A stretch of DNA of 40,321 nucleotides, from assembly GCA_021779535.1 (NCBI GenBank), contig JAJYAM010000017.1:1-40321 (forward strand), in the 5' to 3' direction. The stretch's first letter is position 1, and each line of letters begins with the position of its first letter. The notes under the pieces are model-generated. The model ran no database searches. It was not told where the DNA came from and saw only the letters and a program-made list of their open reading frames with translations. Positions 12,666-26,462 of the stretch are shown here, piece after piece. Made by a program: the position numbers and the translations under genes. This stretch comes from Pseudomonadota bacterium (GTDB lineage: Bacteria; Pseudomonadota; Gammaproteobacteria; Steroidobacterales; Steroidobacteraceae).

Positions 12666-12893
12666 TCAGCCGGTCTTGCGCAACACGAACCGGAAGACGT
12701 TCCCCTCGGTGCTCGACTCGACCAGCTCATTGCCGGTCGTGCGGCAAAATGCCTGGAAATCCTTGACCGAGCCCGGATCGGTCGCAAGCACCTCGATCGT
12801 TCCGCCGGCGCCGACCGTCTGCAGCGCCTTCTTCGCGCGCAGGATCGGCAATGGGCAGTTCAGGCCTTTCGCATCGACTGTCTGGTCCGCCAT
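12666..12893 (-). CDS. tusA: TusA-like sulfur carrier protein
   Basis: 75 residues, the full family length. The sulfur-binding cysteine is C13 in the CPxP motif (GLNCPLPILRAKKAL). TusA holds sulfane sulfur as a persulfide and hands it between rhodaneses, DsrE proteins and the oxidation machinery. In sulfur oxidisers it typically sits beside dsrE and shdr genes, as here. It follows dsrE2 by 36 bases and precedes the FadL gene. A second Cys (in DFQAFCRTTG) is common in the family and not thought essential. Confidence 0.95.
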   Translation of the reverse strand: MADQTVDAKGLNCPLPILRAKKALQTVGAGGTIEVLATDPGSVKDFQAFCRTTGNELVESSTEGNVFRFVLRKTG

Positions 12894-12929
12894 CGTGCAA
12901 TCTCCGCCGCGGCCCCGCGCCGCGGGCCG

Positions 12930-13433
12930 TCAAATGAACAAATTGATCTCCGATTGAGTCGCGACGTCGATGTAGCTCGCCGCGCCGCCGAGTTCCGGTC
13001 CCTCGATCATGTCCTTCAGCGTGTAATCGAACAGGTCCATCGTCATCTGGCACGCGATCATGCGCACGCCGGACTCGACCGCGAGTCCGCGCAGGTCCTC
13101 GATGGTCGCGACGCCCTTCTTGCGCATCAGATTGTTCATCATCGCCGACGCGGCCGCATCGACGCCCGGGATCATCGACGCGATGTTCGGCATCCCGAGG
13201 TGCATGCCCGCCATCGGCATCTTCATCGCCGGATTGCCGAGCGGCGAGAGCTGCAGATCCAGCTTCTTCAGCAGCAGCGGCAACCCGTAGAAGGTGAAGA
13301 ACATCGTGACGTCGAGACCCATCGCCGCGGCGGTGGTCGCCAGGATGAACGGCGGATACGCCCAGTCGAGCGTCCCTTTCGTGACGATGATCGACATGCG
13401 CTTGGCGCGCCGCTCGGAACCTGTCTCAGCCAT
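12930..13433 (-). CDS. dsrE2: DsrE2-like sulfurtransferase/peroxiredoxin-like DsrE family protein
   Basis: About 167 residues. The body has the DsrE/DsrF fold with hydrophobic stretches (PPFILATTAAAMGLDVTMFFTFYG) and the DsrE2 signature Cys in RMIACQMTMDLFDYTLKDMI; this is the only cysteine. DsrE2 proteins occur with tusA and are thought to pass sulfane sulfur, possibly at the membrane. It is first in the leftward unit, about 37 bases from a good promoter. The start is uncertain: ATGs at 13445, 13433 and 13397 are all in frame, and the GGGGGAG lies close to the middle one, which I use. It is distinct from the second DsrE at 19080, which has a vicinal Cys pair. Confidence 0.87.
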   Translation of the reverse strand: MAETGSERRAKRMSIIVTKGTLDWAYPPFILATTAAAMGLDVTMFFTFYGLPLLLKKLDLQLSPLGNPAMKMPMAGMHLGMPNIASMIPGVDAAASAMMNNLMRKKGVATIEDLRGLAVESGVRMIACQMTMDLFDYTLKDMIEGPELGGAASYIDVATQSEINLFI

Positions 13434-13469
13434 CGCTCCCCCCATCAGGCTCGCGTCGTTCTACGGCCG

Positions 13470-13498
13470 AACATAGCAAATCCGCGGCGAATAGCCAA
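13470..13498 (-). promoter_or_regulatory. Sigma70-like promoter for dsrE2-tusA-fadL-osmC
   Basis: On the minus strand TTGGCT (13498-13493) and TATGTT (13475-13470) are spaced by exactly 17 bases. Transcription would begin about 30 bases before the dsrE2 start. It lies in the AT-rich divergent region that also carries two palindromes. Prediction from consensus only. Confidence 0.5.
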
Positions 13499-13516
13499 TG
13501 GTCCTATTAGATCGCA

Positions 13517-13541
13517 CTCATATGAGAATATGATGATATTC
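13517..13541. promoter_or_regulatory. Paired palindromes in the divergent sulfur-gene control region (candidate operator)
   Basis: CTCATATGAG (13517-13526) is a perfect 10-base palindrome. It abuts GAATAT (13526-13531) / ATATTC (13536-13541), a 6-base inverted repeat with a GATG spacer. A -10-like TATGAT (13529-13534) for the rightward unit lies inside the second repeat. The location between the two divergent sulfur units, with an ArsR repressor of the SqrR/BigR type in the same locus, makes this a natural operator. Binding by that protein is inference. A weaker AATAG/CTATT pair lies at 13490-13508. Confidence 0.5.
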
Positions 13542-13655: not shown

Positions 13656-14768
13656 ATGCGGCGAACGACGATCTTCATCGGCAGCGGTTCGTGGGAGACG
13701 CCCGGCTTCGGCGACTCCCATCCGCTCGCGATCCCGCGGGTCGCGAGCGTGGTCCGCTTGTGCGAGGCGCTCGAATGGCTCCCGCCGGAGGAGTTCCGCC
13801 AGAGCCCGCGCGCGACGATCGCCGAGCTCGAGCGCTTCCACACGCCGGCGTACGTCGCCGCGCTCGCCGAGGCCGACGCCGCCGGGATCGCGAGCGTCGC
13901 GGCCCGCACCCGCTTCGGGATCGGCACGCGTGAGAATCCGCTGTTCCCGGGCGTGTTCGCGCGCGCGGCGGCGGCCGTCGGCGGCTCGCTGCTCGCCGCG
14001 GACCTCGCGGTGCGCGGTCACCTCTGCTTCCACCCGGAAGGCGGGACGCACCACGGGCGGCCGGACCGCGCGAGCGGCTTCTGCTACTTCAACGATCCGG
14101 TGTTCGCGGTTCGCCGCCTCCTCGAGCGCGGCGTGGACCCGGTGCTCTACGTCGACCTCGATGCGCATCACGGCGACGGCGTGCAGGAGGCGTTTCGCGG
14201 CGATCCGCGGGTGCACACGGTCTCGATCCACGAGCGCGGCCGGTGGCCGTACACCGGCGCGGCGGCGGATCGCGGCGGGGGACGCTCCTGGAACTTTCCG
14301 GTCCCGGCCGGTTTCGGCGACGGGGATCTGGAGTTCCTGATGCGCGAGGCCGTGCTGCGGATCGCCGCGCGGGTCGCCCCGGCGGGGATCGTGGTCGTCT
14401 GCGGTACCGACGGACTCGCGGGCGACCCGCTGTCGGGGCTCGCGCTCGGCAATGCGGCGCTCTGGGACGCGGTCCTCGCGCTGGTCGCCACGGCGCCGGC
14501 CGCGGTCGTGCTCGGCGGCGGCGGCTACAATCCGTGGACGCTCGCCCGCGCGTGGACCGGCCTGTGGGCGCGGCTCAGCGGCCGGCCGATCCCGGACACG
14601 CTCCCCGAGGCGGCGCGGCGGGTGCTCGCCGGCCTCGCCTGCGATCTGATTGACGAGGATCGGATCGATCCGGCATGGTTGACGACGCTCGCCGATGCGC
14701 CGCGGGCCGGCGCGGTGCGGGCCGAGGTCCGCGATCTCGTTCCGGATTGGGAGGTGGTCACCACATGA
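13656..14768 (+). CDS. HDAC/AcuC-fold deacylase inside the lipoate-assembly operon
   Basis: 370 residues of the arginase/deacetylase fold. All expected catalytic elements are visible: the tandem histidines H132-H133 (GGTHHG), zinc ligands D169 and H171 (YVDLDAHHGDG) and D252 (GTDGLAGDPL), and the transition-state tyrosine Y291 (GGGGYNP). It should therefore be an active zinc-dependent amidohydrolase. Known members remove acetyl or other acyl groups from lysines or polyamines. Its stop overlaps the lipS1 start by four bases (ATGA), so it is translationally coupled to the lipoate-synthesis genes. A substrate such as an acylated or lipoylated lysine on LbpA is an attractive but untested idea. 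The ATG at 13656 is chosen where family similarity begins. Confidence 0.9.
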   Translation: MRRTTIFIGSGSWETPGFGDSHPLAIPRVASVVRLCEALEWLPPEEFRQSPRATIAELERFHTPAYVAALAEADAAGIASVAARTRFGIGTRENPLFPGVFARAAAAVGGSLLAADLAVRGHLCFHPEGGTHHGRPDRASGFCYFNDPVFAVRRLLERGVDPVLYVDLDAHHGDGVQEAFRGDPRVHTVSIHERGRWPYTGAAADRGGGRSWNFPVPAGFGDGDLEFLMREAVLRIAARVAPAGIVVVCGTDGLAGDPLSGLALGNAALWDAVLALVATAPAAVVLGGGGYNPWTLARAWTGLWARLSGRPIPDTLPEAARRVLAGLACDLIDEDRIDPAWLTTLADAPRAGAVRAEVRDLVPDWEVVTT

Positions 14769-15841
14769 AGGGCTGGCTCGACGCGCTCGCGAACATCGAG
14801 GAACTCGAGGACGCGCCGATCGACGCCGCGCTGGTCGCCGAGCTCGAGGCGGCCGGCGGTGCGGTGCGCGCCCGGCCGATCCGGTTCTCGACGCCGACGT
14901 TCAAGGACTACGCGAGCACGGAGCTGCGCGGTTGCGCGAAGAACAGCTTCCCCGCGTTCTCGATCACCGGGGCCGCCTGCGCGCTGGATTGCGAGCACTG
15001 CCGCGCGAAGATCCTCGCGCCGATGCTGCCGGCGACCTCGCCGGAGATGCTCGACCGCAAGGTCCGCGAGCTGATCGCGACCCAGGATCTGCGCGGCTTC
15101 CTGTTGTCCGGCGGCTCGAACCGGCGCAACGAGATCCCGTATCGACGCTTCTATCCGGTCGTCGAGCGGCTGAAGCGCGATCATCCGGATCTGCAGATCG
15201 CGATCCACACCGCGCTCACCGATGCCGCCGGCGCCCGCGCGATGGAGGCGGCGGGCGTCGACGTCGCGATGCTCGACGTGATCGGCGCACAACAGACGAT
15301 CCGCGACGTCTACCACCTGGACCGCCCGGTCGCGGACTTCGAGGCGACGCTCGCCGCGCTGTGCGCGACCTCGATGACGGTGACCCCGCACGTCGTGATC
15401 GGCCTGCATTTCGGCCGCATCCTCGGCGAGCGGACCGCGCTCGACATCGTCGCCCGCCACCCGGCCGCGAACCTGGTGCTGGTCGTCGTGATGCCCTTCT
15501 ACGCGAAGCCGGGCACGTTCCAGGCACCCCCGGCCGAGGACGTCGGCCGGATCTTCGCCGAGGCGCGGCGCCGGCTGCCGGACCGCAAGGTCCTGCTCGG
15601 CTGTGCGCGCCCGCCGGGCATGCACAAGCGCGTGACCGACGCGTACGCGGTGCTCGCCGGCCTCGATGGGATCGCGTTTCCGGCCGACGGCGCGGTCGCG
15701 GTCGCCCGGGCGATCGGCCGGCCTTTCGAGCAGCAAAACGCCTGCTGCTCCATCAAGATCGGCGAACCCGCGCGGCGCGCGGGCGCCTGCGGTCCGGTCC
15801 GGGCGGCCGCCGCGGCCCCGGACGAAGGAGTCCTCGCATGA
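14765..15841 (+). CDS. lipS1: Radical SAM lipoyl synthase component LipS1
   Basis: 358 residues with a radical SAM motif CALDCEHC (C72, C76, C79), preceded by the conserved stretch GCAKNSFPAFSITGAAC and followed by FLLSGGSNRRNEIPY. Together with LipS2 it forms the two-protein lipoyl synthase known from archaea and from bacteria with the sHdr pathway, where the pair inserts the two sulfur atoms into octanoyl chains on the carrier protein. LipS1 and LipS2 are unlike classical LipA. It overlaps the upstream HDAC-like gene and the downstream lipS2 by four bases each. The C-terminal NACCSIKIGEP and a late Ala-rich tail with one more Cys may help bind an auxiliary cluster. Assignment of S1 versus S2 rests on order and sequence style. 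Confidence 0.85.
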   Translation: MKGWLDALANIEELEDAPIDAALVAELEAAGGAVRARPIRFSTPTFKDYASTELRGCAKNSFPAFSITGAACALDCEHCRAKILAPMLPATSPEMLDRKVRELIATQDLRGFLLSGGSNRRNEIPYRRFYPVVERLKRDHPDLQIAIHTALTDAAGARAMEAAGVDVAMLDVIGAQQTIRDVYHLDRPVADFEATLAALCATSMTVTPHVVIGLHFGRILGERTALDIVARHPAANLVLVVVMPFYAKPGTFQAPPAEDVGRIFAEARRRLPDRKVLLGCARPPGMHKRVTDAYAVLAGLDGIAFPADGAVAVARAIGRPFEQQNACCSIKIGEPARRAGACGPVRAAAAAPDEGVLA

Positions 15842-17103
15842 GCTGTATCGAACCCTCGCGACCGGCCGCGAACGCCGGCCCCGCCGCCGCCGATCACAAC
15901 GGCTTCGCCGCCATGCAACCGCGCGCGCCGACGCCGACGCCGCCGGAACGGCGCAACGGCGCGCGCGTGAAGAGCGCCGACGAGCCGCCGAACGGTGTGT
16001 ACCTGCCGAACAACAACCTGCTCGCGCCGCACATGCGCTCGCCGGAGTACGTGCAGCTGTCGACCGCGGCGGCGATGACGCTCGGGATCATGCCGGGACG
16101 GATGCATCGCTGCGGGTGCACGCGCTGCCTGAACCTGCTGCTCACCTATCCGGAAGGCTGCCGGGCGAACTGTGCGTATTGCGGTCTGGCGCGCCATCGC
16201 GAGGCGGAGCGGGACTACGCGGACCGCAACTTCATCCGCGTCGACTGGCCGGCCGTGCCGCTCGACCGGGTGATCGACATCGTCGCGCGCGATCCGGCCG
16301 CGAGTCCGTTCCACCGGATGTGCATCTCGATGATCACGCACCCGCGCTCCGACGCAGACACCGTCGCGGTGCTCGGCGCGTGGACGCGCCGGATCGACCC
16401 GGGCGTGATCCCGGTCTCGATCCTGTCGAACCCGACCACGATGGAGCGCGCGGACGTGGTCCGGCTGAAGGACCTCGGCGCCGAGATCTTCACCGTCGCG
16501 CTCGACGCGGCGACGCCGGCGATCTTCGATCGGACCCGCGGCAAGGGCGTGCAGTCCCCGCACCGGTGGGAGCAGTACTGGCAGATCCTGCTCGCGGCCC
16601 GCGACGTGTTCGGTCCGCGAAAATTCGGTGCGCACGTGATCATCGGGATGGGCGAGACCGATCACGAGGCGCTCGCGCTGGTGCAGCGCCTCGTCGACCT
16701 CGGCGGCCACAGCCACCTGTTCTGCTTCTTTCCGGAGAAGGGCTCGCTGATGGACCATCTGCCGGCGACGCCCCGCGATCAATGGCGGCGCGTGCAGCTC
16801 GCGCGCTACCTGATCGATTACGCCGGCGCACGCGTCGAGCGGATGCGCTTCGACGCCCGCGGCCGGGTGGTCGACTACGGGATCCCGGCGGCCGAGCTCG
16901 AGCGGGTGATCGGCGCGGGCGTCGCCTTCCGCACGTCCGGCTGCCCGGGCAAGTTCCGCGACGACGTGTCGGCCTGCGACCGGCCCTACGGCGACTCTCC
17001 GCCGAGCGACATCGCGAGCTATCCGTTCCAGCCGAACGCGCGCGACCTGAAGCGCATCCGCCGGCAGCTCGGCGTGCGCGCGCGCGACGCCGAGGAGGCA
17101 TGA
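15838..17103 (+). CDS. lipS2: Radical SAM lipoyl synthase component LipS2
   Basis: 421 residues. The SAM-cluster motif is CRANCAYC (C108, C112, C115), and a preceding CGCTRC (C92, C94, C97) could serve an auxiliary cluster. Further conserved blocks are FTVALDAATPAIFDRTRGKG and HVIIGMGETDHEAL, typical of biotin/lipoyl-synthase-like TIM barrels. A final SGCPGKFRDDVSACDRPYGD adds two more cysteines. It acts with LipS1 on an octanoylated carrier. A proline- and alanine-rich N-terminus (about 50 residues) precedes the conserved core, so the true start might be later, but the ATG at 15838 overlaps the lipS1 stop as at the other junctions of this operon. Confidence 0.87.
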   Translation: MSCIEPSRPAANAGPAAADHNGFAAMQPRAPTPTPPERRNGARVKSADEPPNGVYLPNNNLLAPHMRSPEYVQLSTAAAMTLGIMPGRMHRCGCTRCLNLLLTYPEGCRANCAYCGLARHREAERDYADRNFIRVDWPAVPLDRVIDIVARDPAASPFHRMCISMITHPRSDADTVAVLGAWTRRIDPGVIPVSILSNPTTMERADVVRLKDLGAEIFTVALDAATPAIFDRTRGKGVQSPHRWEQYWQILLAARDVFGPRKFGAHVIIGMGETDHEALALVQRLVDLGGHSHLFCFFPEKGSLMDHLPATPRDQWRRVQLARYLIDYAGARVERMRFDARGRVVDYGIPAAELERVIGAGVAFRTSGCPGKFRDDVSACDRPYGDSPPSDIASYPFQPNARDLKRIRRQLGVRARDAEEA

Positions 17104-18179
17104 CCACGCGCTTCCGGGTCGTCGACGCGGGCCTGCAGGAGGGCCGCACCAACATCGCGCTGGACCAGGCGATGCTCGAGCTGCACCAGGCGGGGGCGAT
17201 CCCCGATACGGTGCGATTCATCCATTTCCGGCCGAGTGCGCTCGTCGGCCGGCACCAGGCGCTGTCCCAGGAAATCGACCTCGAGTACTGCCGGGGGCAC
17301 GGCATCGGCGTCGGCCGCCGCATCACCGGCGGCGGAGCGATCTATCTCGACGAAGGACAGCTCGGCTGGGAGCTCGTGTTCAACCGCCGCACCCTCGGCG
17401 CCGCGCCGCTCACCGAGACCGCGCGCCGGATCTGCGAAGCGGCGGCCCAGGGCCTGAGCCGCCTCGGCGTCGATGCCCGGTTCCGGCCGCGCAACGACAT
17501 CGAGGTCGAGGGCCGCAAGTTGAGCGGCACCGGCGGATTCTTCGACGGCGACTCGCTGATCTATCAGGGCACGGTGCTCGTCGATCTCGACCCGGCCGCG
17601 ATGCTCGGCGCGCTGCGGATCCCGCAGGCGAAGCTCGCGAAGCGCGGCCTCGATTCCGCGGCGGCCCGGGTCGTCACGCTGCGCGAGCTGCTCGCGGCCG
17701 CGACGCCGACGATCCCCGCGGTCGAGGCGGCCCTGCTCGCCGGGTTCGAAGGCGCGCTCGGCCTCGAGTTCGAGCGGGCCGCGTTGAGCGACGCCGAGCT
17801 AGAGCTCGCGCAGCGCCTCTACGCCGAGTCGATCGGGCGCGAGGCGTTCGTCGCCGAGATCGACGCGCCGCCGCAGGGTGACGGCGTGCGCGTGGGGACT
17901 CACGCGGCCCCGGGCGGCACGATCAAGGTGTACCTGCGCTGCGAGGGCACGCCGGCGCGCCGGATCGGACACGCGTTGATCACCGGCGACTTCTTCGTCG
18001 CGCCGCCGCGGTTGATCTACGATCTCGAAGGACAGTTGCGTGGCGCCCCGATCGAGGCGGCGGCCGCGGCCGTCGACGCGTTCTTCGCGGCCCGCCCCAC
18101 CGGGACCGCGACGGTCGGCGCGGCGGATTTCCGCCAGGCGATCGAGGCGGCGCTCTGTGCGCCGCCCGCCGGCGGCTGA
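17100..18179 (+). CDS. slplAB: Lipoate-protein ligase sLpl(AB)-type
   Basis: 359 residues. The N-terminal LplA/BPL catalytic domain shows FRPSALVGRHQALSQEID, the glycine-rich GIGVGRRITGGGAIYLDEGQLGWE, and the conserved lysine region VEGRKLSGTGGFFDGDSLIYQGTVL. A C-terminal LplB-like accessory domain (about 265-355) is fused, as in the sLpl(AB) enzymes of sHdr loci. It activates octanoate or lipoate with ATP and attaches it to the LbpA lysine. The ATG overlaps the lipS2 stop by four bases. Distinction from ordinary LplA is based on length, fusion and neighbours. Confidence 0.88.
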   Translation: MTTRFRVVDAGLQEGRTNIALDQAMLELHQAGAIPDTVRFIHFRPSALVGRHQALSQEIDLEYCRGHGIGVGRRITGGGAIYLDEGQLGWELVFNRRTLGAAPLTETARRICEAAAQGLSRLGVDARFRPRNDIEVEGRKLSGTGGFFDGDSLIYQGTVLVDLDPAAMLGALRIPQAKLAKRGLDSAAARVVTLRELLAAATPTIPAVEAALLAGFEGALGLEFERAALSDAELELAQRLYAESIGREAFVAEIDAPPQGDGVRVGTHAAPGGTIKVYLRCEGTPARRIGHALITGDFFVAPPRLIYDLEGQLRGAPIEAAAAAVDAFFAARPTGTATVGAADFRQAIEAALCAPPAGG

Positions 18180-18195
18180 CCGGAGCACGCGACGC

Positions 18196-18930
18196 ATGGC
18201 CGACCGGATTCGCGCGCTCGCGGTCATCCAGCACGACTCGGCGGAATATCTCGGCCTGATCGAGGATCACCTCGAAGGCCGGCGGATTCGGTTTCGCTAT
18301 TTCCGCCCGTTCACCACCGACGGCCGGCTGCCCGGCTCGGCGGAACGCGCGGAGGGACTCGTGCTGCTCGGTGCCGGCCCCTGGGGCGGCGCTCCCGGCC
18401 CGCAACGCCTGCCAACCTTCGAGCAGGAGGTCGCCCTCACCGCCGATGCGCTCGTGCACGGCGTGCCGATCCTCGCGATCGGGCTCGGCGCGCTGATCCT
18501 GTGCGTCGCCGGCGGCGGCACGATCGAACCGGCGCCGCTGTCGTTCGAGATCGACGTCGCCGAGCGCACCGCGGCCGACGCGCTCGACGGATACCTGCCC
18601 GGGCGCTTCCCGTCGGTTCGCTATGGCCGCGACCGGCCGCGGCCACCGCCGGCGGCGCGGGTTCTCGCGGTCGACGCGGCGCAGCGGCCGGCGCTCTTCC
18701 AGATCGGCGCGCGCGCGTTCGGGTTCACGGGCCACCCGGGCGTCAAGTCGGCGATGATCGAGGACCTGATCATGGAGTTCCCGGAATCCCCGCCCGATCC
18801 CGGGCCCTTGCTCGCGGCACTGCGGACGATGAACGCCGCGATCGAGGACGCGCTGGTACCGATGATGACCGGCCTGGTGCGTTGCATGGGCTGGATGGGG
18901 CCGGACGACCCCGCGCGCGCGCCGGGTTGA
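18196..18930 (+). CDS. gat: Class I glutamine-amidotransferase-like protein lacking the nucleophile
   Basis: 244 residues with the class I GATase fold (alpha/beta core, GLVLLGAGPWGG oxyanion-side loop). Where active enzymes have GxCxGxQ the sequence is LAIGLGALIL, so the catalytic Cys is Gly96. The His is present at H180 (FTGHPGVKS), but the Glu two residues on is Gly182. The protein should not hydrolyse glutamine by the known mechanism. A gat gene commonly accompanies lipS1/lipS2 in sHdr loci, where its function is not established to my knowledge. The ATG at 18196 has GGAG about 11 bases upstream. It is last in the lipoate-assembly unit; a 149-base gap follows. Confidence 0.8.
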   Translation: MADRIRALAVIQHDSAEYLGLIEDHLEGRRIRFRYFRPFTTDGRLPGSAERAEGLVLLGAGPWGGAPGPQRLPTFEQEVALTADALVHGVPILAIGLGALILCVAGGGTIEPAPLSFEIDVAERTAADALDGYLPGRFPSVRYGRDRPRPPPAARVLAVDAAQRPALFQIGARAFGFTGHPGVKSAMIEDLIMEFPESPPDPGPLLAALRTMNAAIEDALVPMMTGLVRCMGWMGPDDPARAPG

Positions 18931-18985
18931 GCGAAGCCGCGCGGCACCCCCGGCAAGCCCTGGCTTGCGCATGCGAACGAATTAC

Positions 18986-19484: not shown

Positions 19485-20240
19485 ATGACCGGCGTGACCG
19501 CGACGACGCGCGTGCAGGAATTCATCGGCGATCCGCTCGCCGGCACCGCGCCCGTTGCCCGCGAGAAGCTCGAGGAGATCTTCCAGGACATCCAGGCGGA
19601 CCTGCGCTTCGACCATGAGCTGAACGGCTGCCTGAACTGCGGAATCTGCACCGCGACCTGCCCGTCGGCCCATTACTACGACTACAGCCCGCGCGAGATC
19701 GTGCAGCTGTTGTGGACCGAGAATCTCGAGGGCATCTACGACGCGATGCAGGAGAAGATCTGGGCCTGCGCGCAGTGCTACACCTGCGCGGCCCGCTGCC
19801 CGTTCGGCAACTCGCCGGGCGGCCTCGTGATGCTGATGCGCGAAACCGCGATCAAGCACGGAATGGAGTCCGCGAAGAACGTGCTGCGGCCGTTCAGCCG
19901 GGTGATGCTGAAGCTGATCTCGACCGGCAATCAACTCTCGCCCGACATGATCAGCCGTGACGCGTTCCCCGACTGGGGCCCGAACATCTCGAAGGTCGAT
20001 GCGCCGCTCGCGGTGCTGCGCAAGGCGATTCCGGTGCCGACGCTGCACACGACCAAGACGGCGTGGGAAGTGAACCTGAAGACCTCGGTCGAGCTGTACA
20101 CGATCTGGGAAGAGACCGGGGTGTTGACGAGCTTGAAGGTCGTGGATCCGAACCTCTTCGACGTGATCGGCGACATCATGGACGAGAAGCGCGACGAATA
20201 CGCCGAGTGGCTCGAAGAACAGGAGGAGGAGACGACATGA
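19485..20240 (+). CDS. hdrC1: sHdrC1, double [4Fe-4S] subunit of the sulfur-oxidising Hdr-like complex
   Basis: 251 residues. Two ferredoxin motifs, CLNCGICTATCP (about 49-60) and CAQCYTCAARCP (about 95-106), are separated by a helical linker. The remainder is helical with an acidic C-terminus. HdrC passes electrons between HdrA flavin and the HdrB cysteine-rich subunit. The order hdrC1-hdrB1-hdrA-hyp-hdrC2-hdrB2 is the diagnostic sHdr arrangement for cytoplasmic oxidation of sulfane sulfur to sulfite. Shine-Dalgarno GGTGAGGGG precedes the ATG at 19485. It overlaps hdrB1 by four bases. Confidence 0.95.
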   Translation: MTGVTATTRVQEFIGDPLAGTAPVAREKLEEIFQDIQADLRFDHELNGCLNCGICTATCPSAHYYDYSPREIVQLLWTENLEGIYDAMQEKIWACAQCYTCAARCPFGNSPGGLVMLMRETAIKHGMESAKNVLRPFSRVMLKLISTGNQLSPDMISRDAFPDWGPNISKVDAPLAVLRKAIPVPTLHTTKTAWEVNLKTSVELYTIWEETGVLTSLKVVDPNLFDVIGDIMDEKRDEYAEWLEEQEEETT

Positions 20241-21598
20241 GCGATCCCAACGAGCGGACTGCGGGCGAACGCTTCACCGGTCACGGGTCCGAATGGAAGA
20301 GCGCCGCGCTGAGCGCGAAGGAGGCCCAGGGCGCGACCGCCTGGGTCGAGCAGATCATCGACCGGCGCTCGATGCTCACGAACAAGGATCGCGTCGAGGA
20401 CGTCCGCGACGCGATGTGGCAGCTCGAGAAGGACGGGGAGATCCTCGTCCACCGGGTCAGCGACGAGCATCGGCCGGTCCACGTGCGCACGCTCTACGGT
20501 TGGGACAAGAAGATCCCGACCACGCAGCTCTGGCATCACAAGTCCTGCGGCCAGTGCGGCAACATCCCGGGCTATCCGACCTCGCTGCTCTGGTTGATGA
20601 ACCAGATGCAGATCGAATACCTCGACGAGACCGATCAGACCTCGTGCACCGCGTGGAACTACCACGGCTCGGGGATCGGCAACGTCGAGAGTCTCGCGGC
20701 GGTGTTCCTGCGCAATTTCCACCAGGCCTACGTCGCATCGAAGGCGCAGGGGCTGCCCGAGGGCTACTACTATCCGCTGGTCCACTGCGGAACCTCGTTC
20801 GGCAATTACAAGGAGATGCGCTCGTTCCTGATGCACTCGGCGAAGCTGCGCGAACGGATGCGCAAGATCCTCGGCAAGCTCGGACGGCTCGTCGACGGCA
20901 AGCTCCTGATCCCGGAAGAGGTCGTGCACTACTCGGAGTGGCTGCACGTGATGCGGGACGAGGTCGCGAAACGCCGCGTGATCGACTGCAGCGCAATTCG
21001 CGCGACGATCCACCCCGCCTGCCACGTCTACAAGATGATCCCCGAGGACGCGATCTACGACGAGACGGTGCTCGACGGCAACCGCGTCGCGGTATCGACC
21101 GGCATCATGCAGACGCTCGGCACGCAGGTCATCGACTACTCGACCTGGTACGACTGCTGCGGGTTCGGATTCCGGCACATCATCTCGGAGCGGGAATTCA
21201 CCCGCTCGTTCGCGATCGACCGGAAGATCCGGGTCGCGGTCGAAGAGGCGCACGCCGACGTGATGATCGGCCACGACACCGGCTGCATCACCACGCTCGA
21301 CAAGAACCAGTGGATCAGCAAGGCGGACGGACGGCCGGTGGGGTTGCCGGTGCTGGCGGACTGCCAGTTCGCCGCGCTGGTCTGCGGGGCGCACCCGTAC
21401 AAGATCGTGCAATCGCACTGGCATGCCTCCGCGACCGAGACCCTGATGGACAAGCTCGGCATCGACTGGCGCGCGCGCAAGGCGGAGTTCGAGGAATACC
21501 TGAAGGACGTCGCCGCCGGGCGCGGCGAGACGCTCTACGACCCACGGCGGATGATCACGTCGGGGCCCGGTTACAAGCGCCTGGGACAACCCGGATGA
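20237..21598 (+). CDS. hdrB1: sHdrB1, CCG-domain subunit with degenerate cysteine motifs
   Basis: 453 residues, longer than methanogen HdrB, with an extra N-terminal segment of about 90 residues. In the N-half the cysteine pattern begins CGQCGN, but the expected CCG is replaced by SCTAWNY. In the C-half ACH and DCCGFGF (C307-C308) are present, while the closing CxxC is reduced to DTGC. The set of ligands therefore differs from a full pair of non-cubane [4Fe-4S] sites, in keeping with what is known of sHdrB1 versus sHdrB2. It is thought to be the catalytic or electron-relay partner near HdrA. It is joined to hdrC1 and hdrA by four-base overlaps. Confidence 0.94.
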   Translation: MSDPNERTAGERFTGHGSEWKSAALSAKEAQGATAWVEQIIDRRSMLTNKDRVEDVRDAMWQLEKDGEILVHRVSDEHRPVHVRTLYGWDKKIPTTQLWHHKSCGQCGNIPGYPTSLLWLMNQMQIEYLDETDQTSCTAWNYHGSGIGNVESLAAVFLRNFHQAYVASKAQGLPEGYYYPLVHCGTSFGNYKEMRSFLMHSAKLRERMRKILGKLGRLVDGKLLIPEEVVHYSEWLHVMRDEVAKRRVIDCSAIRATIHPACHVYKMIPEDAIYDETVLDGNRVAVSTGIMQTLGTQVIDYSTWYDCCGFGFRHIISEREFTRSFAIDRKIRVAVEEAHADVMIGHDTGCITTLDKNQWISKADGRPVGLPVLADCQFAALVCGAHPYKIVQSHWHASATETLMDKLGIDWRARKAEFEEYLKDVAAGRGETLYDPRRMITSGPGYKRLGQPG

Positions 21599-22641
21599 AC
21601 GACCCGATCCTGATCGTCGGCGGCGGTCCCGCCGGCCTCGCGGCCGCGCACGCGCTCGCGCGCGTCGGGCGGCGCGGCGTGCTCGTCGACAAGGCGGACC
21701 GCCTCGGCGGCGCGCCGATCCTCTCCGGCTATGCGAAGCTCGTGCCGTCCGGCGAATGGGCGAAGGATGCGATCGGCGGAATGGTCGAACGGGTCCGCGC
21801 CGACCCGTTGGTCGAGGTCCACACCGGCACCACGGTGCGCGCGTTCGACGGCTCGCCGGGCGATTTCACCGCCCAGCTGTCCGACGGCACGGCGGTGCGC
21901 GCCGGGGCGGCGATCCTCGCGACCGGCTTCACCCATTTCGACTCCCTGAACAAGCCCGAGTGGGGATTCGGCACGTTCCCGGACGTCGTGACCACGACCC
22001 AGGTCGAGCAGATGATCTCCTCGGGGCGCGGCGTGCGCTGTCCGTCCGACGGCCGCAAGCCGCAGCGCGTCGCGATCCTGCTGTGCGTCGGCTCCCGCGA
22101 TCGGCAGATCGGCCGGGAATGGTGCTCGAAGATCTGCTGCACGGTGTCGACCAATCTCGCGATGGAGATCCGCGAGGAATTGCCGGACTGTCACGTGTAC
22201 ATCTATTACATGGACATCCGCACGTTCGGCCTGTACGAGACCAAGTACTACTGGCGCAGCCAGGAGGAGTTCAAGGTCAAGTACATCAAGGCGCGCATCG
22301 CCGAGGTGACCTCGGACGGCCAGAAGCTGATCGTGAAGGGTGAGGACACCCTCGTGAAGCGGCCGGTGACGATCCCGTTCGACCTGGTCGTGCATGCGAT
22401 CGGCATGGACCCCAACGTCGACAACAAGACGATCGCATCGACCTTCGGCGTCGCGCTGGAGCCGCATGGCTACCTTGCGCGCGGCAACAGCTACGGCAAC
22501 ATGGCCGAGACCTCGCGCGCCGGGATCTTCGTCGCCGGTGCCGCGACCGGGCCCGAGACGATCGACGACTCGATCGGTCAGGGTCACGCCGCGGCGATCA
22601 GCGCCCTCGGGCTCCTCGGCGCCGCACGGGCGATCGCATGA
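21595..22641 (+). CDS. hdrA: sHdrA, FAD-binding subunit of the Hdr-like complex
   Basis: 348 residues, the short bacterial sHdrA form. The N-terminal dinucleotide-binding motif ILIVGGGPAGLAAAHAL binds FAD. Cysteines C164, C177, C181 and C182 (in CVGSRD and EWCSKICC) provide the site for its iron-sulfur cluster. The second FAD contact is near the end (AGIFVAGAATGPETIDDSIGQGHAAA). It lacks the ferredoxin inserts and extra domains of methanogen HdrA, so flavin-based electron bifurcation as in methanogens should not be assumed. It overlaps hdrB1 and the hyp gene by four bases. Confidence 0.95.
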   Translation: MNDPILIVGGGPAGLAAAHALARVGRRGVLVDKADRLGGAPILSGYAKLVPSGEWAKDAIGGMVERVRADPLVEVHTGTTVRAFDGSPGDFTAQLSDGTAVRAGAAILATGFTHFDSLNKPEWGFGTFPDVVTTTQVEQMISSGRGVRCPSDGRKPQRVAILLCVGSRDRQIGREWCSKICCTVSTNLAMEIREELPDCHVYIYYMDIRTFGLYETKYYWRSQEEFKVKYIKARIAEVTSDGQKLIVKGEDTLVKRPVTIPFDLVVHAIGMDPNVDNKTIASTFGVALEPHGYLARGNSYGNMAETSRAGIFVAGAATGPETIDDSIGQGHAAAISALGLLGAARAIA

Positions 22642-23465
22642 GGCGGGTTCCCGCGGCCGCGCCGCCGGTGTCGCTCGATTTGAGCGGGGAACGCCTGGGA
22701 TCGAGCCTCGCGCGCCTGGTCGCGGGGGCCGAGCCGCACGGCGGGCTGGAGCGCTACGTCGAAGCGCTGAAACTGAAGTGCGCGACGTTCCGCGACGCCC
22801 TGCAAGCGGCGCCGGACCGGCTCGCGACGCTCGAGCCGGCCGCCTTCGGCGCGCTCTGCCCGTTCATGCCGACGGTGCGCCGGCGGATCGCTCGCTGGCT
22901 CGCGCGGCCGGCGTACGACACGCTGCGCGAGGAGCTCGCGGCGCTGCTCGCGACCGCCGGCGACACGGCCTCGACCGACGCGCGGCTCGCAGAATTCGGC
23001 ACCGGCCTCGGCAACGACCGCAGCCAGCGCTGGGTCCGGGACCTCGCGGCGGAGGTGCTGCACAACGTCGATCCGGAGCGTTATCCGTTGATGACGCGCT
23101 GGGTCTGGGATGCCGCGGCCAACACCGGGGTGCTGCGCGAGATCTGGTTCGCGGACGGTGCGTTCCCTGATCGGATCGCGGTCGCGGACAGCTACGCGAC
23201 GTTCCTCGCGCTGCGCGAGGAGCTCAGCGGCTATCTCGCCCGGCAGGGCTTCTTTCGCGACATGCTCCACTACGTCGATCTGCTGTGTGCGCAGGTGTAC
23301 GCCGAGTACATCTGCGATCAGGGCGGAAGCTACCTGCGCACCGACTTCTCGGCCGAGCCGGACCCGCTCGAGTTCACGCGGCGGCTGCTCGGTCTCGACG
23401 GCGTCGGGGCCGGCAGCGGCCGGGCGCGCCTGAACACGATCGAAGGCCGCGCGACGGCCGCCTGA
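22638..23465 (+). CDS. Conserved hypothetical protein of the sHdr cluster (Hyp between hdrA and hdrC2)
   Basis: 275 residues, mostly alpha-helical by composition, with no transmembrane segment or signal peptide. It has four cysteines (KCATF, ALCPF, LLCAQ, YICDQ). The middle contains GNDRSQRWVRDLAAEVLHNVDPERYPLMTRWVWD, and the C-terminal third has YVDLLCAQVYAEYICDQGGSYLRTDF. No catalytic motif is recognisable. A gene for such a protein sits between hdrA and hdrC2 in the sHdr clusters of many sulfur oxidisers, so a structural or assembly role in the complex is likely but unproven. It overlaps hdrA by four bases and ends seven bases before hdrC2. Confidence 0.9.
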   Translation: MRRVPAAAPPVSLDLSGERLGSSLARLVAGAEPHGGLERYVEALKLKCATFRDALQAAPDRLATLEPAAFGALCPFMPTVRRRIARWLARPAYDTLREELAALLATAGDTASTDARLAEFGTGLGNDRSQRWVRDLAAEVLHNVDPERYPLMTRWVWDAAANTGVLREIWFADGAFPDRIAVADSYATFLALREELSGYLARQGFFRDMLHYVDLLCAQVYAEYICDQGGSYLRTDFSAEPDPLEFTRRLLGLDGVGAGSGRARLNTIEGRATAA

Positions 23466-23472
23466 GGCGCCC

Positions 23473-24240
23473 ATGCCGATCCACGAGAAAGAGCTCATTC
23501 GGCCGGAGAATCTGCGCACCCACGAACAGTTGACGGTCGACGGCGTCGACGTCTCCGGGCATTGGAGCACCTTCATCCAGTCCCGCGTCGTCACCGACTA
23601 CAACGAGGCGATGCAGGACGAGATCGCGGCCCTGCCGGGTGGAGAATTCATCCACCGCTGCTGGCAGTGCGGATCCTGCACCAACGCGTGCACCGTGAAC
23701 GCGGTGAACCCCGACTTCAATCCCCGCTTCTGGATCTACCTCGTGCGGGTGGGCATGGAAGCCGAGCTCCTGCGCGACAAGGACATCGTGTGGCAGTGCG
23801 TGAGCTGCAACAAGTGCACGACCATCTGCCCGCGCGACGTGAACCCCGAGGGCGTGATGAAGGCGCTTTCCCACTGGCTCGAGCTCAAGGGGCACACGCC
23901 GAAGTCCCCGTCGATGGTGTTCGACGAGGTATTCGCCGATCAGGTGATCCGCCGCGGGAAGATCGAGGACGGCCGGACGATCCGCCGCTTCTTCGAGCGC
24001 ACCGGCCAGGCGCTCCAGCAGGATTGGCTGATCGAGATGGCGAAGCGGCTCGTCCGCCACCTGCCCGTCGGCTTGCTCGCGCGGCTCGGCTGGAGCGCCG
24101 TGATCGCGCCGCGAACCCGCGACTGGTCGCGCGCACGCGCCGCGATCGAGGAATACGTGCACGACCAGCATGCCGCGCAACGGCAGGCGCTCGGCCTCGA
24201 CGCGGCAGGCGGCGCCTCGACGACTCGCGAAGGAGCCTGA
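23473..24240 (+). CDS. hdrC2: sHdrC2, double [4Fe-4S] subunit
   Basis: 255 residues. Ferredoxin motifs are CWQCGSCTNAC (about 62-72) and CVSCNKCTTICP (about 110-121). The first lacks the proline that usually follows the fourth Cys (Thr instead), as often in this subunit. The C-terminal half is basic and helical (about 150-250) and may contact the membrane or another subunit. It pairs with HdrB2 to form the second arm of the complex. The Shine-Dalgarno before ATG 23473 is weak (GAGG at about 23464), suggesting coupling to translation of the preceding gene. Confidence 0.94.
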   Translation: MPIHEKELIRPENLRTHEQLTVDGVDVSGHWSTFIQSRVVTDYNEAMQDEIAALPGGEFIHRCWQCGSCTNACTVNAVNPDFNPRFWIYLVRVGMEAELLRDKDIVWQCVSCNKCTTICPRDVNPEGVMKALSHWLELKGHTPKSPSMVFDEVFADQVIRRGKIEDGRTIRRFFERTGQALQQDWLIEMAKRLVRHLPVGLLARLGWSAVIAPRTRDWSRARAAIEEYVHDQHAAQRQALGLDAAGGASTTREGA

Positions 24241-24246
24241 CGCCCG

Positions 24247-25185
24247 ATGTCCGAGACCAAGTCCGACAAGTACGCCCGCGTCGCCTATTACCCCGGCTGC
24301 GCGCTCGAGGGCACCGGCCATCCCTACAACCGCTCGACGAAGGCGGTCGGCAAGGCGCTCGGCCTCGACCTCGTGGAGGTGGACAACTGGAACTGCTGCG
24401 GGGCGATGGAGGTCAAGAACATCGATCCGAAGGTCCAGACCTATCTGTCGTCGCGGGTGATGTCGATCGCCGCGAACCAGATGCGGATGGACGTGGTGAT
24501 GGCGCCGTGCAACGGCTGCTACCACAACCTGAAGAAGGCGGAGCACGATCTCGCCCACGACCCGGCGAGCGCCGAGGTCGTCGCCCGGTTGTCCGCGAAA
24601 GCGGGACACGCGGCGTATCAACCCGGGCAGGTCGAGTCGATCCACGCGCTCGACTGGCTCAAAGGAGCGATCGGCGAGGACGGCTTGCGCGCACGCGTGA
24701 AGGGCGGCCTCAAGGGTTTGCGGATCGCGAACTACTACGGCTGCATGTACACCCGCCCACGCAACATCTTCCCGGAGAAGGACGCCGGACCGGGAAGCGA
24801 GTCGACCTCGAAGCCGCACTTCATGGACGACCTGCTGGCCGCGGCGGGCGCGGTCAACGTGGACTTCCCGCTGAAGACCGCGTGCTGCGGGGGGGCGCAC
24901 ACGCTCTCCGACAGCGATCTGTCGACGAAGCTCGTGCTCAACATCCTGAACGCCGCCGAAGCGGCCGGCGCCGAGATCATCGCGACCGAGTGCCCGACCT
25001 GCCATTCCGGGCTCGAGATGCATCAGATCCGGGCCGAGAAGCGCTTTCAGCGCAAGACCCAGGTCAAGATCGTGTACTTCACCCAGTTGCTCGGTCTCGC
25101 GCTCGGGCTGTCGGCGCGCCAGGTCGGCCTCCACGAGAACGTGTCGGAGTCCCGTGAGCTGCTCGCCGCCAAGGGACTCGGATGA
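24247..25185 (+). CDS. hdrB2: sHdrB2, CCG-domain subunit with two complete cysteine motifs
   Basis: 312 residues. Both CCG repeats are intact: YYPGCALEGTG, NCCGAME (C50-C51) and PCNGC in the N-half; YYGCMYTRP, ACCGGAHT (C213-C214) and ECPTC in the C-half. Each set can hold a non-cubane [4Fe-4S] cluster as in methanogen HdrB, where it cleaves a heterodisulfide. In sHdr it is expected to act in the reverse, oxidative sense on a thiol or persulfide substrate. GAAGGAG lies about ten bases before the ATG, inside the hdrC2 end. It overlaps the next small gene by four bases. Confidence 0.95.
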   Translation: MSETKSDKYARVAYYPGCALEGTGHPYNRSTKAVGKALGLDLVEVDNWNCCGAMEVKNIDPKVQTYLSSRVMSIAANQMRMDVVMAPCNGCYHNLKKAEHDLAHDPASAEVVARLSAKAGHAAYQPGQVESIHALDWLKGAIGEDGLRARVKGGLKGLRIANYYGCMYTRPRNIFPEKDAGPGSESTSKPHFMDDLLAAAGAVNVDFPLKTACCGGAHTLSDSDLSTKLVLNILNAAEAAGAEIIATECPTCHSGLEMHQIRAEKRFQRKTQVKIVYFTQLLGLALGLSARQVGLHENVSESRELLAAKGLG

Positions 25186-25598
25186 TCCCGCTCGACGAGG
25201 TCGAGTCGCGCCTGGCGACGCTCACCGCCGCCGCCCCGGCGCCGGACGACGCCGCCGAGATCCTCGCGCTCGGCGAAGCGGTCCTCGAGCACTGGGTGCG
25301 CGCACGCGGCGAGACGCCGACCACGGACCGGCAGGAAGGCTTCCGGTTGCTGGCGCTGCATCGCCAGGGTGCCCGCGGGATGCCGAGCTTCAATGCCTGT
25401 CGCGAGAGTTGCCGCGAGCTCATCTATCACTACAACCTGCTAAAATCGGAGCCTGAACACCCGGACGCCGGCCGGCGCGCGCGGATGATGGCGCTGCTCG
25501 CGAATCATCTGTGCTTGTTCGTCGGCGGGAAGCTGCAGACCGAGCGCCTGGGCGAGTTCTGTTGCGCATCGAAACCGGTGCGCGCGCAGTCCGGTTGA
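25182..25598 (+). CDS. Uncharacterised 138-residue cysteine-containing protein between hdrB2 and lbpA
   Basis: The gene overlaps the hdrB2 stop by four bases (ATGA) and ends 28 bases before lbpA, so it is firmly part of the operon. The protein is helical and soluble. It has five cysteines: NACRESCRELIYHY (a C-x3-C pair), NHLCLF, and a near C-terminal FCC. I do not recognise a family. The cysteine placement could bind a metal or carry a persulfide, and its position suggests work with HdrB2 or LbpA. Codon use is like its neighbours. Confidence 0.82.
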   Translation: MIPLDEVESRLATLTAAAPAPDDAAEILALGEAVLEHWVRARGETPTTDRQEGFRLLALHRQGARGMPSFNACRESCRELIYHYNLLKSEPEHPDAGRRARMMALLANHLCLFVGGKLQTERLGEFCCASKPVRAQSG

Positions 25599-25626
25599 AC
25601 GGGCATCGGCGAGAGGAGTTCGAGTC

Positions 25627-26070
25627 ATGGCCACGGTGCGCGGATGCAATCTGCCCGATGATCTGCTCTACGACGTGCAAAGCCACATCTGGTTCCGCGA
25701 GATCGGCGACGGCAACGTCAAGGTCGGAATGACCGCGGTCGCGACCGCGATGGCCGGCCGCCTGGTCGCGTTCACCCCGAAGGGCGTCGGCAAGGAAGTG
25801 AAGGCCGGCAAATCCTGCGCGACGGTGGAGTCCGGCAAGTGGGTCGGACCCGCGAAGGTCGCGGCCGGCGGCACGGTCGTCGAGGTCAACGAGACGCTGG
25901 TCGCGACGCCGAGCATCGCGAACGAGGATCCGTACGGGCGCGGCTGGCTGCTGGTGCTGAAGCCCGACAACTGGGCGGAAGTGAAGCCGACGCTCGTCCC
26001 GGGCACGCAGGTCGCGGGCCCCTACGAGGCGAAGATGACCGCCGACGGCTTCGCCGGTTGCGGCGCATGA
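25627..26070 (+). CDS. lbpA: Lipoate-binding protein LbpA (GcvH-like)
   Basis: 147 residues with the GcvH fold. The lipoyl lysine is K71 in the motif TVESGKWVGPAK, within the hammerhead hairpin, with a matching downstream ANEDPYGRGWLLVLKPDNW. This is the sulfur-specific LbpA rather than glycine-cleavage GcvH, judged by its sHdr operon and the absence of gcvT/gcvP. Its lipoyl group is thought to carry the sulfur substrate as it is oxidised by sHdr. A strong Shine-Dalgarno, GAGAGGAG, precedes the ATG. Two cysteines (near the N-terminus, RGCNLP, and K-S-C in KAGKSCATVES) and a terminal FAGCGA are also present. It overlaps the arsR gene by four bases. Confidence 0.94.
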   Translation: MATVRGCNLPDDLLYDVQSHIWFREIGDGNVKVGMTAVATAMAGRLVAFTPKGVGKEVKAGKSCATVESGKWVGPAKVAAGGTVVEVNETLVATPSIANEDPYGRGWLLVLKPDNWAEVKPTLVPGTQVAGPYEAKMTADGFAGCGA

Positions 26071-26462
26071 CACGCACGCCGGTGCGCAAGCGCCCGGGCG
26101 GCGCGCCCCGGTCCCGCGCACCGGAAACGCCGCCCACGGCGGCGATCGCCTTGCTGCACCGGCGCGAGCTCGCGGCCCTGCACACGCGGGCGACGCGCGT
26201 CTCCGCGGTCCTGAAGGCGATCGCGAACGAGGCGCGGCTGCTCCTCGTCTGTCAGCTCGCCGAGGGCGAGAAGTCGGTCGGCCAGCTGCAATCGTGCGTC
26301 GGCCTGAGCCAGTCCGCGGTCTCGCAGCACCTCGCGCTGCTGCGCGAGCACAAGCTGGTGTCGACCCGGCGGCGGGGACAGTCGATCCACTACGCTCTGT
26401 CGAGCGGGGAAACCGCGGCGATCATCCGCACGCTCCACGACCAGTTCTGCCGCAAGCGCTGA
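26067..26462 (+). CDS. shdrR: ArsR-family repressor of SqrR/BigR/sHdrR type
   Basis: 131 residues from the ATG overlapping the lbpA stop. A winged helix-turn-helix (GLSQSAVSQHLALLREHKLVSTRRRGQSIHYAL) follows the ANEARLLLVC block. Cysteines C62 and C128 are 66 residues apart, the same spacing as the C41/C107 pair of Rhodobacter SqrR, which forms a sulfur bridge under persulfide stress. Metal-site cysteines of ArsR/CadC are absent. It should therefore be a persulfide-sensing repressor that is relieved when sulfane sulfur rises, controlling the sulfur operons. An extra C77 lies in the DNA-binding region. The Pro/Arg-rich N-terminal 25 residues may be disordered. Confidence 0.9.
   Translation: MTRTPVRKRPGGAPRSRAPETPPTAAIALLHRRELAALHTRATRVSAVLKAIANEARLLLVCQLAEGEKSVGQLQSCVGLSQSAVSQHLALLREHKLVSTRRRGQSIHYALSSGETAAIIRTLHDQFCRKR

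Follow-up and report, generated by a model that had tools for sequence, protein, structure and literature searches.

Here, we describe a stretch of 40,321 nucleotides from a Steroidobacteraceae bacterium (contig JAJYAM010000017.1; hereafter the window, meaning this whole stretch), in which positions 12666-26462 hold a complete type I sHdr-LbpA sulfur-oxidation locus with LipS1/LipS2/sLpl, TusA, DsrE2, DsrE3 and a two-cysteine ArsR repressor. This is a known system, correctly recognised in an earlier reading made from the sequence alone, and we find that it regularly carries a class I HDAC and often lies near an H2-using enzyme, an Isp-type [NiFe] hydrogenase. A clade of class I HDACs tied to lipS1 and the linkage of the Isp hydrogenase to sHdr are both new, in that we did not meet them in the literature searched; together with them, the chief new element is an LbpA-Isp variant without detected sHdr. 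We propose that LbpA is the hub of the locus, that the Isp1-Isp2 pair trades electrons with it, and that the HDAC is a lysine deacylase of the lipoyl system, a tentative reading whose chances we put just short of even.

The window belongs to a GC-rich metagenome-assembled genome (MAG) of 2.93 Mb in 127 contigs, 99% complete (G000, the window being G000:C15). The closest named relatives of its HdrA come from MAGs that carry the label Gammaproteobacteria or Proteobacteria; two of these, L031 and L034, are Steroidobacteraceae. Scanning genome contigs with an HdrA alignment gave 408 relatives, the best 80 of which were taken as loci L025-L104 and viewed with 10-kb flanks, the window genes being mapped onto each. 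Co-occurrence was counted in 59 distinct sHdr genomes (60 handles, since G078 is G042 again), in 50 relatives without sHdrA, and in a phylum sample of 398 genomes. Family calls are matches to Pfam and NCBIfam profiles, with equivalog cut-offs noted where missed.

Two sister species, G487 (100% complete, 10 contigs) and G509 (98%, 8 contigs), carry an LbpA-lip locus without detected sHdr. One way it reads LbpA-DsrE3-FadL-TusA-DsrE2, and the other way HDAC-LipS1-LipT-LipS2-sLpl-HycI-HupH-HynS-Isp1-HynL-HupE-Isp2-HypF; lipX, hyp138 and ArsR, sought at the locus and not elsewhere in these genomes, are absent from it. Neither genome gave a match to sHdrA at E<=1e-10 or to dsrA, and sHdrB1 was not found in G487. 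Another member of the genus, G507, has a full sHdr locus and no hydrogenase within the 35 kb fetched around it. LbpA of G487 and G509 keeps the lipoyl lysine and both cysteines, and the G487 protein used as a query found a match in 5 of 61 relatives, G487 included. Between the two species the ratio of nonsynonymous to synonymous substitution (dN/dS) is 0.00-0.09 in all 13 compared genes, with dN and dS of 0 and 0.43 for LbpA, 0.003 and 0.47 for Isp2, and 0.07 and 0.90 for the HDAC. With dN so far below dS, LbpA, the sulfur carriers, the lip genes and the HDAC are evidently maintained without detected sHdr and beside an Isp hydrogenase, which stands in the place expected for the sHdr core. Also beside lbpA in this locus is a gene that fuses a lipoate ligase catalytic domain to DUF116 (L214:16060-17682).

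In the window, HynS, HynL, Isp1 and Isp2 share one operon, the hallmark of the Isp type, with Isp1 assigned from a weak match and its position; its orthologues are 44-96% identical, and Isp2 matches the NCBIfam families HmcF, DsrK and TmcB, always below their cut-offs. The Isp-type (group 1e) hydrogenases of Thiocapsa and Acidithiobacillus ferrooxidans, as described in PMC10892978 and PMC7735108, have the same HynS, Isp1, HdrD-like Isp2 and HynL; that of the window differs in adjoining sHdr-lip genes and in its order, HynS-Isp1-HynL-Isp2. The published order, hynS-isp1-isp2-hynL (PMC7735108), occurs in Woeseiaceae, G061, G062 and G069. HynL at >=65% identity, which we counted as Isp-type (Isp genes alongside were unchecked in G090 and G102), is present in 36 of the 59 sHdr genomes, and 20 of these have it on the sHdr or lip contig at a distance of at most 15 kb. 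Simple arithmetic, for a target of 44 kb in 3.3 Mb of genome, puts the chance expectation at about 1.3% per genome; because the sample is weighted to kin of the window, independent linkage events number fewer than 20. Four layouts and two subunit orders are seen. In seven genomes of the window genus, counting the window, the hydrogenase comes directly after OsmC or FadL (in G066, Isp2 and OsmC are 3.2 kb apart). G061 has it behind ArsR, and in G062 and G069 (loci L037 and L046) it sits within the hdr operon at the hyp138-lbpA junction. In nine more, G042, G056, G063, G065, G077, G080, G082, G086 and G099, all of them Woeseiaceae or grouping with these, other genes separate it from TusA and it lies 3.4-10.5 kb beyond. 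The interval in G080 (L144, 6506-11574) holds HupH, a metallo-beta-lactamase fold protein, a molybdopterin oxidoreductase with a Mo-co dimerisation domain and a Cons_hypoth698 membrane protein. A second HynL type (58-60%), accompanied by HynS, is found near the sHdr cluster in G086 (L140); G072 and G083 (L149, L150) have it on other contigs. In G006 and G019 (L011, L018) a HynL-like match of 33% follows a PLDc gene at about 1.4-1.5 kb.

Six genomes of the Woeseiaceae lineage have an Isp1-Isp2 pair on the strand opposite to FadL, about 2.8 kb beyond it, and carry HynL on another contig with its own divergent Isp2. No HynS or HynL was found in the surroundings of the lone pair in three of these genomes, and the same is likely in the other three; the hits near FadL are not the hydrogenase of these genomes, HynL being on other contigs. 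The Isp2 proteins of the lone pairs form one clade (support 100/100) next to hydrogenase-linked Woeseiaceae Isp2s. In Woeseiaceae, group 1e hydrogenases and sulfide oxidation are described as co-occurring, the hydrogenase in MAGs being taken as a sign of hydrogenotrophic sulfur reduction (PMC8443593), and sHdr is described in Woeseiales (PMC12345210); in the literature searched we met no statement of gene linkage between hydrogenase and sHdr.

The HDAC adjoins LipS1 in 42 of the 49 loci in which this could be decided (31 of the 80 were undecidable). At E<=1e-120 it is found in 50 of the 59 sHdr genomes, or in 52 when a contig-edge fragment in G012 and the tree-placed protein of G071 are counted, and in none of the 50 sHdr-negative relatives, whose best HDAC reaches E 3.5e-45. 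In the phylum sample, sHdrA at E<=1e-100 was detected in the window genome and six others; the HDAC at E<=1e-120 was detected in the window genome and five of these six (not G110), and in 0 of 391 sHdrA-negative genomes. HDACs scoring 1e-110 to 1e-96 occur in 19 of these sHdrA-negative genomes, and one of them, in G487, is lip-linked, so that the HDAC accompanies the lip genes also where sHdr was not detected. Scoring presence from the E-value alone was abandoned, as a sister group falls at 1e-96 to 1e-110; the tree excluded G068 and G103 and kept G071. In this tree of 88 rows, 56 lip-linked HDACs form, with G071 and G060, one clade of 58 (support 89/90), every row of which comes from a genome with lip genes; its sister group comprises 22 HDACs that stem from sHdr-free or unlinked places. 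The active-site residues (His-His, Asp-x-Asp-x-His, Asp, Tyr) are intact in all 58 rows of the lip-linked clade. A rim glutamate at position 92 is shared by all 58 rows and by Aquifex aeolicus HDLP, and occurs in 0 of 21 sister rows; active-site and rim positions follow HDLP numbering, in which D173 is one of the active-site residues. HDLP (PDB 1C3P) is the nearest solved structure to the window HDAC (1.1e-67, versus 8.3e-44 for HDAC8). It shares the rim glutamate but falls outside both groups on a long branch, apart from HDAC6-like paralogues, in a tree for which the tool warns of long branches meeting. Aquifex is also described as having LbpA (PMC6067878). One genome, G105 (L198, L199), a MAG labelled Paracoccaceae, has both a lip-linked and a sister-type HDAC. 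Among cultured sHdr bacteria, Allgaiera indica DSM 24802 (L101) has the HDAC gene. The idea that the HDAC substitutes for LipT was discarded, since both co-occur, for example in L067, L094 and L099. A deacetylase in sHdr or lip loci is not reported in the main texts of PMC10332631, PMC6067878, PMC11582611, PMC12423496, PMC10451225 and PMC12345210, supplements and subscription literature being outside this scope. Deacylase-family enzymes that act on lipoylated proteins, as we propose for the HDAC, are known among sirtuins, namely the bacterial lipoamidases CobB and SrtN and the SirTM of GcvH-L operons (PMC8556138); these are NAD-dependent sirtuins, unlike the window enzyme, which belongs to the zinc HDACs.

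These observations suggest a model for the reactions and partners of LbpA, Isp1-Isp2 and the HDAC. In the published scheme, sulfane sulfur enters via TusA, DsrE2 and DsrE3, lipoylated LbpA helps to pass it on, and the sHdr complex oxidises it towards sulfite. We propose two additions, one on LbpA and one on the HDAC. LbpA, and not sHdr, would be the hub able to stay constant. HdrD-type proteins act on disulfides, and Isp1 is by family a membrane cytochrome b. The lipoyl arm is itself a cyclic disulfide, with E0' of about -0.29 V (PMC6067878), and Isp2 is said to resemble heterodisulfide reductases (PMC10892978). On these grounds the simplest reading connects LbpA to quinone through Isp1-Isp2: the HdrED-like pair would move electrons between the lipoyl disulfide/dithiol of LbpA (or an LbpA persulfide) and the quinone pool, and H2 would, through HynSL, feed or drain the pair. 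In G487 and G509, Isp1-Isp2 would have LbpA as its partner in the absence of sHdr, the simplest such role being H2-driven reduction of sulfane sulfur. For Thiocapsa Hyd, sulfur reduction with H2 uptake is given as the sole known major role, and the schemes that place the enzyme in sulfur metabolism are said not to fit all data (PMC10892978). A lysine deacylase encoded in a lipoate operon would most simply act on the acyl-lysine of LbpA, stripping off octanoyl or lipoyl groups, or supply free octanoate for sLpl. A bolder form of this model, possible but to our mind unlikely, would make LbpA a stand-alone lipoyl shuttle for varied redox machines: the Isp enzyme of G487 and G509 would replace sHdr as an H2:lipoyl-protein (sulfane sulfur) oxidoreductase, Isp1-Isp2 would be the quinone outlet in sHdr genomes, and the HDAC would be a zinc lipoyl/octanoyl-lysine hydrolase, as HDLP may be too.

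Several observations weigh against the main model, for LbpA and for the HDAC. Our samples are weighted toward kin of the window, and in the phylum sample only the best five first-look candidates per genome were scored. Sixteen of the 36 genomes have HynL on another contig, G098 and G109 among them even though their sHdr contigs extend far beyond the cluster; several of these 16 contigs end near the cluster, so that lack of linkage is not always demonstrated. The genes that intervene in the nine Woeseiaceae-type genomes, and the opposite strand of the lone Isp pairs, make these neighbourhoods and not operons. Of the 80 loci, only three show a hydrogenase and six an Isp pair in their 10-kb flanks, so the hydrogenase is not required. 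The HDAC is not beside LipS1 in 7 of 49 loci, and its lip type was not found in G022 (84% complete), G064, G068, G076, G079, G081, G103 or G110. Sister HDACs with 43-52% identity occur in sHdr-free genomes, the support of the lip-linked clade is below the tool's mark of 95/80, HDLP is described as a protein deacetylase, and the order of the Hyphomicrobium denitrificans locus, in the published text available to us, has no HDAC. Gene neighbours may, moreover, share only a habitat.

In the most probable alternative, this is an ordinary sHdr locus in which hydrogenase and HDAC share regulation or habitat, as in a chemolithotrophic island, neither of them acts on LbpA, and the HDAC deacetylates an unrelated protein such as acetyl-CoA synthetase, the role of AcuC. 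The rarity of the hydrogenase in the 10-kb flanks, its distance of often several kilobases, the sister HDACs without sHdr and the description of HDLP all fit this account. It sits poorly with an HDAC gene that overlaps lipS1 and accompanies lip genes even where sHdr was not found, and with a hydrogenase that two genomes carry within the hdr operon and two more immediately after sLpl, and we regard it as unlikely, if a real contender. We are more doubtful that the HDAC is a supplier and not an eraser, cleaving octanoyl- or lipoyl-lysine from other proteins (GcvH, E2) to give free octanoate or lipoate for sLpl. The HDAC gene is first in the unit, sLpl is reported to accept only free octanoate or lipoate (PMC10332631), and on the same side we list FadL/LipY, which suggests another fatty-acid source; a fatty-acid importer or thioesterase could nevertheless provide octanoate, and present data do not distinguish supplier from eraser. 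Least probable is that the LbpA-lip unit of G487 and G509 serves another function, for example with an unrecognised sulfur enzyme elsewhere, and that the hydrogenase was merely inserted after sLpl: our searches there covered only sHdrA, dsrA and, in G487, sHdrB1, yet the joint arrangement is kept under purifying selection in two species, and an Isp operon adjoins lbpA also in L037 and L046.

Features of the window, with positions counted from its first letter (a point marks features without strand)
Feature	Positions	Strand	Evidence
HycI/HynD-type hydrogenase maturation protease	5359-5991	+	Pfam HycI 3.5e-22
HynS, [NiFe] hydrogenase small subunit	5957-7054	+	Pfam; NCBIfam TIGR00391 421.9 bits, cut-off 179.5
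Isp1, HdrE/NarI-like membrane cytochrome b	7056-7715	+	Nitrate_red_gam 8.4e-4, below cut-off; position between HynS and HynL
HynL, [NiFe] hydrogenase large subunit	7712-9478	+	Pfam NiFeSe_Hases 1.9e-229
Isp2, HdrD-like, 4Fe-4S and one CCG domain	9475-10740	+	CCG 5.7e-13, Fer4_8
OsmC family protein	10784-11221	-	Pfam OsmC 1.4e-14
FadL family outer-membrane protein, probably LipY	11235-12620	-	Pfam Toluene_X 2.4e-13
TusA sulfur carrier	12666-12893	-	Pfam 1.9e-23
DsrE2 sulfurtransferase	12930-13445	-	Pfam DrsE_2 5.4e-48
GAATAT-N4-ATATTC perfect inverted repeat, operator candidate	13526-13541	.	DsrE2-HDAC divergent region
Class I HDAC, first cistron of lip unit	13656-14768	+	PF00850 4.8e-65
LipS1 lipoyl synthase subunit	14765-15841	+	NCBIfam LipS1 1.8e-55; radical SAM Pfam 1e-5, below cut-off
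LipS2 lipoyl synthase subunit	15838-17103	+	Radical_SAM 6.9e-11; NCBIfam LipS2 1.3e-51, below cut-off
sLpl(AB) lipoate:protein ligase	17100-18179	+	LplA-B_cat 4.7e-44; LplB domain 8.6e-11, below cut-off
LipX, amidotransferase-like without nucleophile Cys	18196-18930	+	NCBIfam PRK07053 4.2e-11, below cut-off
TTAG-N6-CTAA palindrome, candidate operator	18987-19000	.	upstream of dsrE3
DsrE3 sulfurtransferase	19080-19457	+	Pfam DrsE_2 3.9e-10
sHdrC1	19485-20240	+	Fer4_8 3.1e-10
sHdrB1	20237-21598	+	CCG 1.7e-7; NCBIfam HdrB 1.9e-28, below cut-off
sHdrA	21595-22641	+	Pyr_redox_2 5.8e-18; HdrA families best, below cut-off
sHdr hypothetical subunit (Hyp, H)	22638-23465	+	conserved position
sHdrC2	23473-24240	+	Fer4_9 9.2e-10
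sHdrB2	24247-25185	+	CCG 1.7e-22, two stretches
hyp138, conserved 138-aa helical protein	25182-25598	+	position, alignment, AlphaFold
LbpA lipoate-binding protein	25627-26070	+	GCV_H 8.7e-32
ArsR repressor, sHdrR-type	26067-26462	+	HTH_5 1.2e-11; Cys62, Cys128

Type I sHdr systems are those with shdrC1B1AHC2B2 in one syntenic cluster (PMC11582611), which is the arrangement at 19485-25185, and LbpA is recognised as a GcvH-like protein with a conserved lipoyl lysine and two extra conserved cysteines (PMC6067878), all of which the window protein keeps (ESGKW, GCNLP and GFAGC in an alignment, and likewise a consensus of 62 sequences). The Hyp subunit gave no family match and no significant fold match, from a model with pLDDT of only 73. 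The small protein hyp138 directly follows HdrB2 in all 61 decidable loci; C73 and C127-C128 are invariant among 30 aligned sequences, its AlphaFold model is helical with pLDDT 91, and it gave no Pfam, NCBIfam or significant PDB fold match. Compared with the relative G006, dN/dS is 0.07-0.29 in 21 of 24 genes (those comparable over >=90% of codons), HycI, HynS and Isp1 being outside the set as they are truncated by a contig edge of G006.

The divergent order TusA-DsrE2 <- -> HDAC-LipS1-LipS2-sLpl-LipX-DsrE3-HdrC1B1A-Hyp-C2B2-hyp138-LbpA-ArsR recurs, whole or to the contig end, in many gamma- and alphaproteobacterial MAGs among the 80 loci, with deviations in L045, L053, L058, L061, L098, L100 and L101. 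Thus the organisation is not unusual, contrary to the sequence-only reading, which had itself suggested the comparison of gene order that now speaks against it. The genes which that reading named (DsrE types, TusA, six sHdr genes, LbpA, LipS1/LipS2/sLpl and the repressor) are confirmed at the positions it gave. OsmC and FadL, which it also counted in, are present, but at 10784-12620 on the minus strand, just outside the 12666-26462 it delimited; of the members that it saw as drawn in, the HDAC is the regular first gene of the lip unit and FadL is probably the published lipY. Its boundaries end short of the hydrogenase, the site of the most informative variation, and it did not list lipX, hyp138 or the Isp-type hydrogenase operon (5359-10740). 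The closest described system, the lip-dsrE3C-shdr-lbpA2 locus of H. denitrificans, shares lipS1, lipS2, slpl, lipX, dsrE3C, the shdr genes, lbpA and sHdrR with the window; as published, it differs in having lipT, shdrR before lipS1 and tusA after lbpA2, and, unlike the window, the text of PMC12423496, as far as available to us, mentions no hydrogenase.

lipS1, lipS2 and slpl stand together beside shdr-lbpA, the arrangement expected of a dedicated lipoate assembly unit. LipS1 (188.4 bits) and LipS2 (175.8 bits) score below the NCBIfam equivalog cut-offs of 230 and 270, and these remain the best family for both, so that we name the two genes by best match and synteny. ATGA overlaps at the HDAC-LipS1, LipS1-LipS2 and LipS2-sLpl junctions point to possible translational coupling across the four genes; the LipS1 start chosen here overlaps the HDAC stop, and an in-frame ATG also occurs at 14675. 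LipX precedes DsrE3 in 58 of 63 loci and is under purifying selection (dN/dS 0.23 against G006). Class I glutamine amidotransferases carry their nucleophile cysteine in a G-x-C-x-G elbow. The equivalent position of LipX is Gly in 60 sequences, Glu in three and Cys in none of the 63, and is Cys in the aligned PDB entries 9xfs and 1o1y; the published label, putative glutamine amidotransferase, is therefore doubtful as an activity. The names lipX and lipY are given in the Fig. 1 legend of PMC10332631, where lipY is a putative fatty-acid transporter; both genes are thus published associates of such loci, the window FadL probably being lipY. A FadL match is found in 32 of the 80 loci, mostly adjoining TusA or after ArsR. 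LipT, described in about 53% of LipS1/S2 bacteria (PMC10332631), has no match at E<=1e-15 in the 127 contigs of the window genome, as the sequence-only reading had proposed for the window, or in the relatives G006 and G019; it has one in 17 of 30 genomes searched. A LipS1-LipS2 gap of >900 bp occurs in 15 of 50 loci, and LipT was identified by sequence in all 15; it stands behind the cluster in L032, L033, L039, L040, L042, L044, L073 and L080. That there is no second lbpA is likewise true for the window, a genome-wide search not having been made. OsmC is flanked by Isp2 and FadL in the window and in both G006 and G019, and adjoins FadL also in G066 and L040; it was seen in these five only, 10-kb flanks often ending before its place. 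Two cysteines are visible by eye in a two-sequence alignment. Since OsmC/Ohr proteins can be lipoyl-dependent peroxidases (by titles cited in PMC10332631), the window protein is a possible peroxidase of this kind, for which LbpA may be the reductant.

The ArsR protein was called a SqrR-like repressor, and this is in keeping with its two cysteines, each found in >=95% of 46 sequences and spaced by 66 residues, as are Cys50 and Cys116 of H. denitrificans sHdrR (PMC12423496). The suggestion that the hdr operon is separately controlled also gains support, in that a conserved TTAG-N6-CTAA palindrome, a candidate operator, seems to give it an operator of its own. Of 66 regions upstream of dsrE3, 47 contain the palindrome, that of the window included (0.12 in mononucleotide shuffles), and 19 lack it; it also occurs in 48 of 68 fixed 300-bp regions, versus a mean of 0.14 (at most 2) in dinucleotide shuffles. 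Its centre is variable, and 53 copies occur across the 80 loci (1.257 Mb). It may already be partly in print: the lipX-dsrE3C gap of H. denitrificans is bound in vitro by SoxR and sHdrR and is stated to contain prominent repeats (PMC12423496, PMC10451225). A link between palindrome and cluster ArsR (25/7 against 6/11, p 0.005; at first count 25/9, p 0.014) was set aside as weak and confounded by kinship; L041, L051, L063, L066 and L067, scored as having no ArsR, do show one. A shared operator at the divergent promoter was also rejected, TTAG-N6-CTAA occurring in 0 of 35 DsrE2-HDAC regions and the GAATAT repeat not being conserved in relatives. Searches for sigma70 promoters and terminators gave nothing above chance.

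Elsewhere in the window genome, contig G000:C25 (L234) carries an rDsr-type set: dsrA (1.3e-169) and a dsrB-like frame, together with dsrH and dsrK, which exceed their cut-offs, a dsrM-like gene, which does not, and what is presumably dsrL; dsrA is present in G006 too. With the sHdr locus, this set gives the genome two cytoplasmic sulfane-sulfur routes. FlpD (PF02662) was not found in the window genome.

Our findings bear on the electron exit of sHdr, the partners of Isp hydrogenases, the source of octanoate for sLpl and the cellular role of bacterial class I HDACs. With a natural swap of sHdr for Isp around an unchanged LbpA, and an HDAC that tracks lipoate genes, these questions become directly testable with small proteins. 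If the bolder form of our model is true, the arrangement in G487 and G509 would name the sulfur partner of Isp-type hydrogenases.

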